Origin: Pseudobdellovibrionaceae bacterium
GTDB lineage: Bacteria > Bdellovibrionota > Bdellovibrionia > Bdellovibrionales > Bdellovibrionaceae
Length of the DNA stretch: 46,642 nucleotides
Assembly (NCBI GenBank): GCA_021731025.1
Contig: JAKFYD010000043.1
Coordinates: 1 to 46,642 of the forward strand
Reading direction: 5' to 3'
Below the pieces are notes generated by a model. That model saw only the letters and a list, made by a program, of their open reading frames with translations. It did not search any database and had not been told where the DNA came from. Both the position numbers and the translations under genes were made by a program. Positions 174-29,460 of this stretch are shown here, in pieces; within the stretch, counting starts at the first letter, position 1; each line of letters opens with the position of its first letter.

Positions 174-746
174 ATGAAAAAGTCCACTCAAACATCTTTT
201 CTAAAAGATAAAATCCCGAAGCATTTCGGCGGAAGTTTCCTTAAAGGAAATGCAAAAACTCCGCGTCCGCTTTCTACAAAGCACTCGCTCCATCTTGTTT
301 TGAAATCTGAACAGGCTATGGGGAAGAACTCGATGCTCCAGAAACGAAATGTCGAGGCTATTGATCGTATCCTGCGAAAGCAGGCCGAGAAATGTGGAGT
401 TAGAATTTATCACCTCGTGAATGTGGGAAATCATATCCATTTAGTCATCAGAATTACCCGCTTTCATCTTTATAGGAAATACATTCGCTCTGTCACAGGC
501 TTGATCGCAAGACATGTGACTCAAAAACAAAGAGGCACTGCCACCGTGGCAGTAAAACCAAGCTCAAGCGCAAATCGAAAGAAGAAGTTCTGGGTCGCCC
601 GCCCCTTCACTCGATTGATCAACTGGGGCAAAGATTTCAAACGTGTCTCTCAATACATGAACAAAAATCACCGACAAGCTCTTTTCATCGCTTGGGGATT
701 TGAGACGACGAATCTAGAAGATATCTACCTATTAAATACGGGCTAA
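174..746 (+). CDS. REP-associated tyrosine transposase (RAYT, Y1/IS200-like)
   Basis: This encodes about 190 residues of the Y1_Tnp/IS200-like fold. An HUH motif is visible (NHIHLVI), and the likely catalytic tyrosine lies in VSQYMNKN near the C-terminus. The N-terminus (MKKSTQTSFL, then FGGS and RPLSTKHSLHLVL) is the layout usual for RAYT proteins of Bdellovibrio. I chose the ATG at 174 because the protein begins there in family style; a TTG at 135 would add 13 residues overlapping the previous gene. RAYT proteins act on single-stranded REP or BIME repeats and are usually single-copy and domesticated. No clear REP pair flanks this gene within the visible sequence, and no IS ends are seen. 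Confidence 0.78.
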   Translation: MKKSTQTSFLKDKIPKHFGGSFLKGNAKTPRPLSTKHSLHLVLKSEQAMGKNSMLQKRNVEAIDRILRKQAEKCGVRIYHLVNVGNHIHLVIRITRFHLYRKYIRSVTGLIARHVTQKQRGTATVAVKPSSSANRKKKFWVARPFTRLINWGKDFKRVSQYMNKNHRQALFIAWGFETTNLEDIYLLNTG

Positions 747-24469: not shown

Positions 24470-26400
24470 AAAACTTCCGATTAAACTTTTCATTCACTTT
24501 TATCATCATGAGCTTTATCGCTCCAATAGCCCAAGCAGATCGCCCCTTAGTCATTGGGCCGACAACGTCTATTGAATTGTCGCGCATTGATCAGATTCTG
24601 GTCCGCTGTGGAGCTGAATCCGTCGATGGCAGAAGTCGATTTATGGAAGAAGTCGTCAAAAAGGCTCAATACTTTTTTACAGAAAATTCGAATATTGAAA
24701 TCTGCAATACAAATTTAGTTTGCTCTGCAGGCACAAGCACTTGGTTTAACATCGATGATATCGAAAATCTTTCTTACCGAGAACGTGCCCTACGCATGGT
24801 TTACGAGAGAATCATGCAAAGTCCACGTGGACTATCATCAAATAATGCCAGCCGCCTGATGAAAGCCTTGTCAACTGCATTGCCTTTGTTCAGTCGTCAC
24901 TACTTTGGCCAAAAAATAAAGCTTACTGATAATGCGGTCAATGAAATGAATCAAATTCCTGAAATATTATCTGCGTTGGGATTATACACAGCCAACAAAA
25001 TGGCAGATTCGCGATCTTGCACTGAAAAAATATTTATAGCGAATGAAACCGTTTTTGTTGCTTCAGAGTCATTGCGAAAAAGTTTAAAAGAAAAAGAAAA
25101 AATTTTCGATCAAAGAGCTCAGCAATCGATCAAAAAATCTGGCGATAATTTAGTTGGTGACTCTGGTGATACTTTACTTTGGAGCGGAATTTACATTGCC
25201 TCGCAAGCACATCGCTACAAAGTGACTGGTGACAAGGAAGCTATTCGCAACATGGAACCTTCACTGTGGGCTTTCCATGAATTGCACAAAGTCACGGGCA
25301 ATAAAACTTTAGTTGCTCGTCGTATGCAGAAACAACCCGATAAAAATAAAGAACTTCCCAAAGAGTGGTTTCGTGGAGCCGCTGGTTACGAAGACTATAT
25401 TTGGCGAGGTCATGTCTCTTGGGATATGTATTTAGGTTATCTTTACGGTATAGCTGAAAGCTGGGATGTCATTAGCGATCAAAAGCTAAAAGCAGTTCTT
25501 AAGGAAGATTTAAGGGAAATCGCTTTAGGATTTATTGAAAATGGCATGGCCATCTCGGGTTTCGACACTTATTTATCTTCTGATCCTGATGGATGTTTTA
25601 TTGATCATCGTCAGTGTGGCATTTTAGAACGCCTCGGAAAAAATGCAGTTCATTACTTTGCTGTCAAAACTGGGAATGCTCTTCGCTCTCTCGTTCTTTT
25701 GCAAACCGCCAGTATTGTCACTGAAGATGCAGAAATCAAGAAGGCTCACCAATCTTTACTTGATCATGCTTGGTGGATCTATGCACAAAAATATGGACTG
25801 ACCCGAAGTGAAAAAATCATTGGAAAAATTCTTGTGCCGACAAATCTTTTGGTGGACGCCGTTCATGGCAAAGAAGTGGACGTCAATTTGGATACTCTGC
25901 TGGATCCCGTGGGTTCAAACTTAGGTCATCTGACTCATTACATTTTGACCCGGCAGGAAAAGAACCCTAAATTAAAATCAATTTACCTGACTGGATTCAA
26001 AAATATCGTCCATGAAAGTGTTAAAAATGATTACAACTCTTTTTGGAATTTTCAATTAGCTTCGTTGCAAGGGAAAAACTACCGCGCGTCTGAAGTAGAG
26101 GATTCCCTAGAAAGCCTTTATCGATTTCCCCTCGATAAATACGAACAGCGAACTAACAGCTCGAATCCTGATATTCCAAAATACAAAGGCGTATCAGCAA
26201 AAGGCTTTTTCAAGAGCAACGATACTCCCTGGTACTCTTATGAGCCGATTCCCTTGGATATTCGCCCAATGCATGGATTTGCGTGGCAAAATAATGCCTA
26301 CCGTTTGGATGGAGGTTATGAAGAAGCTTCTCCTGGTGTTCCGTTCTTAGCTGCTTATTGGCTGGGACGAATGTCTGGTTTTATCGGGAGCGAAGACTAG
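24466..26400 (+). CDS. Exported (alpha/alpha)6-toroid-like protein
   Basis: 644 residues from the ATG at 24466. The signal peptide ends IAQA (about residue 25). The central part has hallmarks of six-hairpin toroids: DTLLWSGIYIASQAHRYKVTGD, followed by RGHVSWDMYLGYLYGIAESWDVI, helices with aromatic and acidic surfaces. Such folds include glycoside hydrolases, epimerases and lyases; I see no family-specific catalytic signature. It ends the three-gene operon and is translationally coupled to the previous gene. Its stop codon overlaps that of the opposing lipoprotein gene in a shared CTAG. Confidence 0.75.
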   Translation: MKNFRLNFSFTFIIMSFIAPIAQADRPLVIGPTTSIELSRIDQILVRCGAESVDGRSRFMEEVVKKAQYFFTENSNIEICNTNLVCSAGTSTWFNIDDIENLSYRERALRMVYERIMQSPRGLSSNNASRLMKALSTALPLFSRHYFGQKIKLTDNAVNEMNQIPEILSALGLYTANKMADSRSCTEKIFIANETVFVASESLRKSLKEKEKIFDQRAQQSIKKSGDNLVGDSGDTLLWSGIYIASQAHRYKVTGDKEAIRNMEPSLWAFHELHKVTGNKTLVARRMQKQPDKNKELPKEWFRGAAGYEDYIWRGHVSWDMYLGYLYGIAESWDVISDQKLKAVLKEDLREIALGFIENGMAISGFDTYLSSDPDGCFIDHRQCGILERLGKNAVHYFAVKTGNALRSLVLLQTASIVTEDAEIKKAHQSLLDHAWWIYAQKYGLTRSEKIIGKILVPTNLLVDAVHGKEVDVNLDTLLDPVGSNLGHLTHYILTRQEKNPKLKSIYLTGFKNIVHESVKNDYNSFWNFQLASLQGKNYRASEVEDSLESLYRFPLDKYEQRTNSSNPDIPKYKGVSAKGFFKSNDTPWYSYEPIPLDIRPMHGFAWQNNAYRLDGGYEEASPGVPFLAAYWLGRMSGFIGSED

Positions 26401-27404
26401 TTCACGTCAGCCGGTAGGAATTCCACGCGAATATCATCATCGGCTTTGGGTACACTGGCGCCATTAAAACGGATCACGCGGATTTCGGGAATGTAGGACC
26501 ATCCTGTTGCAGGATCCTTTGGAACTAACTGTTGATTGACGTAAACACGAATGGAATCCAAAGCAGGAACCTGGCTTAAACGATAATCCGTTAGGTACTC
26601 AACCAAGCGGGCTTTAATGCTGCTGATCGCACCCGACAAATTGGCCTGACAGATCGATTCAATTTTTCCATTACTTTTTTGCGCCATTTCCATTTGCAGA
26701 GCGCCAACTTCTTTAAATCCAGTAAGATCTCCACCCGTGCAAGGATCGCCGGCACTGATAAAGCCAATGAAGTTAAAAATCCAGCTGCGCTGTCCGTTGG
26801 ACCAAGTGGGCTTCAACTGATCTAAAAAGTCAGAATAAAATTTGGTTCGATCCTTGGAGGTTGGAGTTGTATCGATGTTATCACTTTTGTCGTTTTCATT
26901 GCTGATGTAAACGATCACTAATAAAGAGTCTTGACGAAGAAAGCCTTGGCCTTCGCCCCCCTGATATAAAGGAGAGAGTACATTTTTAATGGCTTGCAGT
27001 CCCCGCTCTTGAGTGGCCCCGTCATTTCCCAAAACAATTTTTTCAGTAAGGCGAGCATCAAAGTCTGGAGTATCCAAAGTGATAAATCGAGGTTCACCAA
27101 AAAATCGTCCTGCCATAGGAAACCAATCAGCCATGGTCGTCGATGTTGAAGCAATTCGGTAGTCTAATTTCAACTGCCTCAAAGTTGCCGTCAGAGGAAC
27201 TAAGGAAGCCAGTAATTTAGATTGAACTTTCCCCATGGAATCCGAATTATCGACTACAAAAAGAAAATCCACTTTATTGTTGTACGCTAAATTCTGATTG
27301 AATGATTCAGATGAGGTTGGCACTTGAAAGCTAACATCATTGTTACAAGCACAAAGCAGAAAAGCAGATAAGAAAAAGATTTTTTTTATCCGCAAAAATT
27401 TCAT
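26397..27404 (-). CDS. VWA-domain lipoprotein
   Basis: 335 residues. The signal peptide ends LLCAC, with the lipidated cysteine at residue 20. A von Willebrand A domain follows, with an intact MIDAS start (FLFVVDNSDSMG, DxSxS) and a later loop containing YISNENDKSD. The C-terminal 80 residues (from about LSQVPALDSIRVYVNQ) look like an extra beta domain. VWA lipoproteins bind partners through a metal ion. The ATG at 27404 overlaps the stop codon of the GYF-PilZ gene (TAATG), so the two are co-translated. Confidence 0.85.
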   Translation of the reverse strand: MKFLRIKKIFFLSAFLLCACNNDVSFQVPTSSESFNQNLAYNNKVDFLFVVDNSDSMGKVQSKLLASLVPLTATLRQLKLDYRIASTSTTMADWFPMAGRFFGEPRFITLDTPDFDARLTEKIVLGNDGATQERGLQAIKNVLSPLYQGGEGQGFLRQDSLLVIVYISNENDKSDNIDTTPTSKDRTKFYSDFLDQLKPTWSNGQRSWIFNFIGFISAGDPCTGGDLTGFKEVGALQMEMAQKSNGKIESICQANLSGAISSIKARLVEYLTDYRLSQVPALDSIRVYVNQQLVPKDPATGWSYIPEIRVIRFNGASVPKADDDIRVEFLPADVN

Positions 27405-28216
27405 TAGGCCGCCTTCTTGGTGCTTTCAGCGAAACCTTTGATTTTTTCACGCACAGTCGTACTGATACTGGTGAATTTCACACCGTACTTCATCAGGCCT
27501 TTTTCTTTTTCGCTTTCTTTGACGAAAGTTTTGCTAATGATGTCGCAAACGGCATTGAAAGGAGGGACTCCATCTCCAGGTTGAAAATGAAGGAATAAAG
27601 TTTGGCCCGGTTGAAGATCTGAAGTGTTAATAAGAATGCCTGCCCCGCCAGCGCTGATCTCGAGACTTTGGCCACGAAAAACAGTCTTGTTATTATGGAC
27701 GATCAAGCTGCATCCATATTGTGCTCGCAAATAACGACGACGAAAGAAAACTTCCGACAGATCTATTGGCAAAGCGTCTTTCAATTTACGAATTTCTGAG
27801 TTTTCGAATTCTTTAACTTCAGCAACGCGCTTCCACGAAGGCAGCTTCTGATGCCAAATAAAATCATACTCATACAAAGCTTTTTCTTGAAGCATTTGCA
27901 CGATTTCCAATTGAGAGAAAGGACCATAGTTATTTCCCTCTTTCAGAATGTACCAAGCTTTTTCTTTGTGTGTACCCTCACTCTGATTAACACCCTCTTT
28001 TGGGTGCATTTTATTTTCCAAAGTGGAATTAAATTTTTCAGTGAATAGAGGATGCTCCATCAACAAGACCCAGTCCTGAAGATTTTCATCGTAGACGTAG
28101 TCCATCCAACTGTGCTCTAAACTTTGAATTTTTTTAATTATGTCTTCGATTTTGAACGGACCCGAATAAGAGCCGCCTTTTGAGACATAAAAAATTTTTT
28201 GGCCTTTTACGTTCAC
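27404..28216 (-). CDS. GYF-GYF-PilZ domain protein, likely c-di-GMP receptor
   Basis: 270 residues, cytoplasmic. Two GYF_2-like modules lie at about 6-60 (IFYVSKGGSYSGPFKIEDI) and 85-140 (AWYILKEGNNYGPFSQLEI), each with the GPF turn and a terminal W. The C-terminal PilZ domain (about 155-265) has the RxxxR switch (RRYLR) and, downstream, EISAGGAG in place of the usual (D/N)xSxxG; the SxxG is kept. GYF modules bind proline-rich peptides in gliding and polarity complexes. The gene is co-translated with the VWA lipoprotein, suggesting a c-di-GMP-dependent cytoplasmic partner for an envelope protein. Which effector it contacts is unknown. Confidence 0.85.
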   Translation of the reverse strand: MNVKGQKIFYVSKGGSYSGPFKIEDIIKKIQSLEHSWMDYVYDENLQDWVLLMEHPLFTEKFNSTLENKMHPKEGVNQSEGTHKEKAWYILKEGNNYGPFSQLEIVQMLQEKALYEYDFIWHQKLPSWKRVAEVKEFENSEIRKLKDALPIDLSEVFFRRRYLRAQYGCSLIVHNNKTVFRGQSLEISAGGAGILINTSDLQPGQTLFLHFQPGDGVPPFNAVCDIISKTFVKESEKEKGLMKYGVKFTSISTTVREKIKGFAESTKKAA

Positions 28217-28328: not shown

Positions 28329-28448
28329 GAGCCTTTCCTAGAGTTTAAAGATCAAGGCCGCACGACCGAGGCGACTGAGGCGTACGAAAGTACGTCGCAG
28401 GGAGCCCGAGGGAGGAGAACGCAGAGATTTAAACTCTAGGAAAGGCTC
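28329..28448. repeat. 120-bp element with perfect 21-bp terminal inverted repeats
   Basis: The ends at 28329-28349 and 28428-28448 are perfect inverted repeats of 21 bp (outer bases GAGCCTTTCC and GGAAAGGCTC). The 78-bp core is purine-rich and includes a hairpin CGTAC-GAAA-GTACG at 28381-28394 with a GNRA loop. There is no ORF. The right end abuts and overlaps the phnE stop codon. Length and ends fit a MITE or REP/BIME-type element, or a large terminator without a good U run. Whether copies exist elsewhere in the genome cannot be seen from this window. Confidence 0.75.
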
Positions 28449-29460
28449 ACTTTAAGGCTTCTCGTAAATAGGCTGAGGCCTGGTCCAACATCCAGACGAC
28501 AATGGCAATAACCAAAAAGATACAGCCGACTTCTTGCCATTGGGCTTGTCCCTGATAGGCGATCAGAAGTTTTCCAATTCCACCGCCGCCGACAAAACCA
28601 ACGATCGTAGCCATTCGCAGATTGATGTCCCAACGATAAATCGTGAATGAAATAAAAGGCAAAATTACTTGAGGAACAATTCCAAACCAAACTGTCTGGA
28701 AGCGATTAGCTCCACAAGCTTGAATGCCTTCGATAGGACCCTCGCTGACACTTTCAACAATTTCTGAATATTGCTTGGCCAGTGAAGCTACGGAATGCAA
28801 CATCAGCGCAAGTAAACCTGCAGCAGGACCTATCCCCACCCAAACTGAAAATATAATGGCCCACATGAAGGCTTCAACCGATCGGACTCCGTTCAGAATT
28901 GTTCTTAATAAAAGATAGATCCCAAAAGCCAAGGGTCCCTTCATTATATTTTTTGCCGCTAAAAAGCTAAGGACAAAGGCAAAGGGCAAAGCAAAAGCCG
29001 TCGCCAGAAAAGCCATGAAAATCGTCTCAACCATGCGAAGGATGGCTCGAGGTAAAATAGCTAGATTGGGATGGAAAAGTTCTTTAAAAATTCGAAGGGC
29101 CCCACCGAATCCATCGGGATCTAATAAACTGATCAGTGAAAACTCTGTGATGTATAAACCAACAGCTACGGCTAAAAATAAAACAATCATCGCCTGCCAA
29201 ATCCAAAAACTCTTTAACCGCTCTGGAAGATCGCCTTGTTTTTGGCGCAAAGGAGCTTGGAAAATTTTTCCACCCCAGGTTTGAATTCGCAATGATTTTA
29301 AAAACCAGGACGTCCCGAAAGAAAATGCAAACAGAACTGCAGCCGTTAAAAAAATCAAATTTAAATTCAAAAGCACTTCTTCTGCGGGACGAAGGCCTAC
29401 CACCAGACCGACAGCCAATAGAAACGAAAAATTAACGGCATCAAAAAAGAGACGTTTCAT
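28447..29460 (-). CDS. phnE: Phosphonate-type ABC transporter permease
   Basis: 337 residues with about six to seven membrane helices and the permease signature region (EGPIEGIQACGANRFQTVWFGIVPQVILPF) near the C-terminus, which contacts the ATPase. It belongs to the PhnE/PtxC group. The ATG at 29460 follows GAAGGAGCTC and overlaps phnC by 20 bases. The stop codon touches the 120-bp inverted-repeat element. No C-P lyase or phosphonatase genes accompany it here, so the imported ligand could be a phosphonate, phosphite or another small anion. Confidence 0.88.
   Translation of the reverse strand: MKRLFFDAVNFSFLLAVGLVVGLRPAEEVLLNLNLIFLTAAVLFAFSFGTSWFLKSLRIQTWGGKIFQAPLRQKQGDLPERLKSFWIWQAMIVLFLAVAVGLYITEFSLISLLDPDGFGGALRIFKELFHPNLAILPRAILRMVETIFMAFLATAFALPFAFVLSFLAAKNIMKGPLAFGIYLLLRTILNGVRSVEAFMWAIIFSVWVGIGPAAGLLALMLHSVASLAKQYSEIVESVSEGPIEGIQACGANRFQTVWFGIVPQVILPFISFTIYRWDINLRMATIVGFVGGGGIGKLLIAYQGQAQWQEVGCIFLVIAIVVWMLDQASAYLREALK

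Follow-up and report, generated by a model that had tools for sequence, protein, structure and literature searches.

A palindromic element at the phnE stop codon

Is the 120-bp palindrome beside phnE a structure fixed at this one site, or is it one copy of something that moves? The element lies at positions 28329-28448 of the window (i.e. the whole 46,642-nt stretch of DNA that was analysed, from genome assembly GCA_021731025.1). A sequence-only reading had described 21-bp ends pairing without mismatch, a purine-rich core with a GNRA-capped hairpin and abutment to phnE, and all of these features were recovered. The left arm (GAGCCTTTCCTAGAGTTTAAA; 28329-28349, + strand) and the right arm (TTTAAACTCTAGGAAAGGCTC; 28428-28448, + strand) are 21 nt long, 100% complementary and spaced 78 nt apart, and together form the outer helix. 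The last two bases of the right arm complement the GA of the phnE stop codon TGA (28447-28449), such that the right end of the element overlaps the end of this gene (BPD_transp_1; 28447-29460, - strand). As the C-terminus REALK is retained in relatives, phnE is not truncated. The next gene downstream (GYF_2 + PilZ; 27404-28216, - strand) runs in the same direction as phnE and lies 112 nt past the far end of the element. A block of a VWA-like gene and the PilZ gene beside phnE (window positions 26397-28216) appears inverted in another genome of the same genus (G001, locus L132).

Within the arms, the left half of the conserved core (GATCAAGGCCGCACGAC plus CGAGGCGA; 28350-28374, + strand) comprises the first internal loop and the 5' side of helix 2, is nearly invariant in 15 copies and contains an AAGGC motif that is retained in other genera. 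The apical stem (28375-28400, + strand) consists of CTG/CAG, an A.G mismatch and GGCGTAC-GAAA-GTACGTC, with the hairpin proper at 28379-28396 and the GAAA loop at 28386-28389; the pairs of the tip covary and the GAAA loop is not retained in other copies. The right half of the core (GGAGCCCGAGGGAGGAGAACGCAGAGA; 28401-28427, + strand) carries an AACGCAG motif also seen in other genera. The predicted RNA fold of the element had an energy of -62 kcal/mol as compared to -31.4 +/- 3.5 for shuffled sequences (z = -8.7), a stability reached by 0/200 shuffles. Neither for the window nor for ten copy-bearing loci did any Rfam covariance model match the element above its gathering score. Terminator prediction did not call the window copy itself; one weak site straddled its outer end.

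A multi-copy family with covarying arms

This is the only copy in the window. The genome as a whole contains 15 complete copies, together with fragments and a sister family that has arms of its own. Family elements are about 105-135 nt long and consist of variable paired arms, a variable tip and two conserved internal-loop motifs (i.e. RAGGC on the 5' side and RACAACGMAG or AACGCAG on the 3' side). Alignment of the 15 copies showed that the core, purine-rich on the + strand, is almost invariant and that the arms, the left arm included, differ in sequence from copy to copy while remaining paired over ~21 bp, after which pairing stops. Several copies with conserved ends had been named as possible support for mobility; the copies were found, with end sequences that differ and pairing that is kept. 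In a 39-pair structure, 95% of cells were paired and 23 pairs had changed on both sides, giving a covariation score of 0.50 versus 0.17 for shuffled data. Covariation was also detected in 29 of 41 pairs of a Bdellovibrio copy set. An origin of the arms in the host flank was rejected, as the arms of different copies align with one another. Sister-family copies were nested within copies of the first family in two cases, at C9 34895-35120 (L016, L020, L058) and C55 5455-5606 (L027, L059); hence 2 of ~8 sister-family elements lay inside first-family elements, far above expectation for such small targets.

Search models were built from the own-genome copies (R1) and from 34 Bdellovibrio copies (A2 and R2). 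Approximately half of 66 genomes of the bacterial family were matched by these models, with 1 to about 50 copies each. About 30 copies were present in a Bdellovibrio genome of 3,782,950 bp, which we take to be B. bacteriovorus HD100, and none in G001, which is only 81% complete. The flank of phnE was inspected in 29 relatives and contained no element; as gene order there has changed, the phnE site is not readable as a clean empty site. A single copy at a conserved position, the state that would have favoured a fixed RNA or terminator, is thus not what was observed. Given the multiple copies and the lack of a copy after phnE in these 29 relatives, the idea of an RNA or terminator that is unique to this site was rejected.

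Placement of copies behind stop codons

On the core strand (+ in the window), it is the right end of the element that adjoins a stop codon, and the gene concerned is encoded on the opposite strand. The distance between the two was within 5 nt for 57 of 75 copies, as compared to 12.7 expected if copies could lie at any position within these intergenic regions. No such preference for stop codons was exhibited by the other end (4/46 versus 10.3 expected). Most ordinary terminators found in these sequences started 20-60 nt behind the stop codon, with a few close ones in Bdellovibrio. All three stop codons were abutted and TAG was enriched (25/61 versus 53/256, P = 0.0016). A sequence-specific target was rejected, since all stop codons occur, TAG being merely enriched, and spacers vary by several nt. 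Abutment to all three stops, unexplained by a sequence target, may reflect selection. The upstream genes are unrelated (e.g. thioredoxin, an ABC-F-like protein, a DksA-like protein, chorismate synthase and cation efflux), and a regulon was rejected on this ground.

Gain or loss and probable replacement between sister species

Comparison of the presumed HD100 genome with a presumed Tiberius genome provided orthologous sites that were occupied in one species and unoccupied in the other, so that the empty sites in relatives sought after the sequence-only reading do exist; the change at each site may be either a gain or a loss. At L091 and L375, a terminator ends in a T-run that is immediately followed by the element, and the sister has the same terminator without the element. 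At L377, a terminator has been retained and the element is located between it and the stop codon. At L098/L327 and L390/L385, one species has the element after the stop codon where its sister has an ordinary terminator, and internal or half deletions were observed in the sister at L378 and L391. No clear target duplication was found at the sites read, a possible TAA duplication at L392/L386 being the only candidate, and neither a transposase nor an excision product was found. Where a site was occupied in both species, element identity was either similar to that of the flanks (0.91-1.00) or far lower. Four orthologous pairs had element identities of 0.71-0.87 and flank identities of 0.90-0.95, with compensated pairs; such low identity together with compensated pairs at shared sites points to replacement by another copy. 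Tandem copies were present in a genome presumed to be that of strain W. At L379 900-1800 (G060), tandem copies lie ~135 bp apart in a single orientation, and several such pairs occur in this genome.

Replichore polarity and strand preference of the fold

Of the 147 copies listed for four complete chromosomes of Bdellovibrio, 143 obeyed one replichore orientation, allowing one orientation switch per chromosome at a fitted switch point. All 30 copies fitted in the presumed HD100 genome, in which the switch coincides with the change in GC skew at 1.85-2.05 Mb. Gene direction does not account for this polarity, as merely 166 of 299 sampled genes (55%) were co-directional with replication. Genes abutted by a copy are transcribed in the direction of fork movement, and genes on the lagging strand (45%) almost never carry a copy. 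Agreement in polarity, judged by GC skew, was found for 19 of 21 neighbourhoods in the draft genome of the window. In a Geobacter genome 33 of 40 agreed, a rough figure as the matches include a subset (AATACCAATTCC...) that may be another or a flipped repeat. That copies behind stop codons almost always point one way relative to DNA replication suggests a spread that takes place at the replication fork.

Read along the core strand, mismatches in the arms were G.U in 119 cases and A.C in 15, counts that are inflated by shared descent. The core strand was more stable than its complement for 15/15 own-genome copies and 35/36 Bdellovibrio copies, a preference obtained with RNA energy parameters and nearly the same with DNA parameters; in the sister family of the window's genome the preference was absent (5/9). 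The core strand is the leading-strand template and corresponds in sequence to the nascent lagging strand; this better-folding strand is antisense to the abutting gene.

A proposed mobile hairpin and its rivals

We give an even chance to the reading that the phnE-adjacent element represents a non-autonomous mobile hairpin, inserted as a single strand in a fork-coupled manner and later used as a terminator at some sites. Spread would require a strand-specific step coupled to the fork, in which a single-stranded hairpin (DNA, or RNA/cDNA) would be recognised by its fold and core motifs. An enzyme supplied in trans would place this hairpin behind co-directional genes, at their 3' ends, and the hairpin would then in many cases replace the intrinsic terminator. 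The copies of Bdellovibrio sensu stricto carry CCTTTTT, which together with the inner stem might be capable of termination; the family in the window has no T-run, and the replacement step would be weaker there. Pairing of the arms would be kept because, as proposed, only folding copies are copied on and copies at a site are replaced by others. Weighing against this reading are the failure to find a transposase, a clear target duplication or an excision product, the strand preference opposite to that of the IS608 model, and the tight abutment to all three stop codons, which may be a product of selection.

The main rival is a structured 3'-end element kept by the host (i.e. a terminator, an RNA 3'-end or a fork/transcription boundary device), whose orientation and abutment are selected and which spreads by occasional ectopic gene conversion rather than by transposition. 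This we consider unlikely; in its favour are the abutment to stop codons, the exchange with ordinary terminators at L098/L327 and L390/L385, the positions conserved between sister species and a core that is invariant over unrelated loci. Such a device fits poorly with copies without a T-run in the window's genome and in G024, with better folding of the strand that lies antisense to the gene abutted, and with the near-absence of copies from lagging-strand genes. Patchy copy number (zero in the same-genus G001), the placement of elements behind or before retained terminators at L375, L091 and L377, and the tandem and nested copies also count against it. Intrinsic terminators themselves resemble the element in their position behind stop codons, in their exchange between sister species and in the inner stem plus T5 of the Bdellovibrio copies; they differ in that the window family has no T-run, orientation is tied to replication and the core is conserved. 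Copying through RNA, in which a core-strand RNA would be reverse-transcribed in trans as for a SINE and joined at the fork to yield the polarity, appears improbable. It would suit the better fold of the core strand with its tolerance of G.U, and a cDNA or RNA end could join at the nascent lagging strand, whose sequence the core strand has; however, DNA energy parameters show the same strand preference.

Less probable still is a REP/REPIN-like sequence moved by a RAYT (TnpA-REP), such as the gene at window 174-746, which the sequence-only reading had named as a conceivable partner. This RAYT-like gene had a Pfam Y1_Tnp score of 22.9, just under the cut-off of 23. The copies are indeed dispersed intergenic palindromes, TAG precedes many of them, their own genome has Y1 transposases (8 matches), and IS200/IS605 enzymes, a precedent for hairpins with fork polarity, have the lagging-strand template as their substrate (PMC6006769). 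Against this, counts of Y1_Tnp (PF01797) and of elements were not correlated across the 66 genomes (Spearman rho 0.10, P = 0.41), zero Y1 matches were obtained for three genomes that carry 44-48, 19 and 6 copies, and nine genomes with at least five Y1 genes have no element. The partnership with the gene at 174-746 was therefore not borne out, and the earlier observation that no sequence in the window links the two holds, as no copy lies beside the RAYT and the window has a single copy. Like REP/REPIN-BIME sequences with their RAYTs, the elements are many, dispersed, intergenic, palindromic, fold as single strands and lie near gene 3' ends. They differ in length (120 nt versus 21-65 nt for REPs), in having a conserved core within variable paired arms, in strict replichore polarity, in the lack of a link to Y1 transposases and in having no fixed GTAG foot: GT[AG]G does not occur as a conserved motif, TAG, TAA and TGA all precede the arm and the first base is variable.

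Several known systems share some of these properties with the proposed mobile hairpin. IS200/IS605 elements (IS608, ISDra2) likewise combine fork-polar placement with hairpin structures, but they carry a transposase gene (tnpA), which a 120-nt element is too short to encode. Their strand preference is also the opposite of that inferred here: the better-folding strand is the leading-strand template and not the strand transposed in the IS608 model, so that the route would be no direct copy of that model. The original suggestion of a MITE- or BIME-like unit or a structured RNA comes close as regards multiple copies, occupied and unoccupied sites, nested and tandem copies and a covarying fold. MITEs are alike in being short and non-coding, with inverted ends, no gene of their own and presence or absence at orthologous sites of sister species. 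Unlike MITEs, the elements have ends that differ between copies rather than conserved terminal inverted repeats, no target duplication that was clear where sites were compared and no parent transposon that could be found. The 127-bp ERIC-type palindromic repeats of enterobacteria are of similar size, intergenic and multi-copy. As an indirect comparison with these, 5,426 E. coli genomes were searched and contained no element-like sequence at E 1e-3. Sites of the attC type were considered and dropped because the conserved part of the element is internal and no arrays were seen.

Distribution across phyla

A pattern scan of public genomes returned >119 stretches, for which the chance expectation was about 0.1 by our own estimate. 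Most were in Desulfobacterota, including Geobacter, and others were in records titled Nitrospirae, Methylomirabilota, Rokubacteria, Gemmatimonadetes, Acidobacteria and Phascolarctobacterium. All 12 of 12 pattern-positive public genomes also contained model matches, with 2 to 148 in each, and copy number was patchy between genomes. Collections of phage, plasmid and E. coli sequences contained no match to the element. It is possible, and we propose it tentatively, that these sequences constitute a multi-phylum class of non-coding mobile hairpins with replication-polar insertion at co-directional 3' ends, machinery yet to be found and replacement of intrinsic terminators. If so, one small folded family would shape gene 3' ends in predatory bacteria, Geobacter, Methylomirabilota and further groups. 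The near-perfect replichore polarity would be a genomic record of fork-coupled insertion. It would become testable which enzyme moves palindromes without genes where RAYTs are unsuited, and how a mobile element replaces terminators harmlessly. A covariance model of the family would annotate many intergenic regions that are now blank.

No description of the structure, the sequence, the abutment to stop codons or the polarity was found in the open-access papers searched. Palindromic multicopy intergenic sequences are noted without explanation in Geobacter genome papers (PMC2700814, PMC2996986); these are alike by description only, and the element matches one Geobacter genome 40 times. An RNA-seq paper on HD100 lists 8 sRNAs.

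Further sequence features were noted around individual copies. Two arm classes, GAGCGTGTTTGAAAAGTC and CAGGGGTTACGCCTA, occur with a related core in one genome (G024; L111-L130). A far-flank motif of Bdellovibrio copies, CTTGGTT..GGGG, was checked and is not general. In Bdellovibrio, a second repeat, AAAAGGTGCCTGG..ACTTTTT, recurs downstream of and adjoining elements at L392, L371, L378 and L391. A purine riboswitch match (51 bits versus a cut-off of 37) lies near an element at L070 1892-1987. A Geobacter subset (L426, L429, L430, L432, L434, L435, L437 and L440) starts with (A/T)ATACCAATTCCACATCAAGGCGCT or a similar sequence and may represent a different or flipped repeat.
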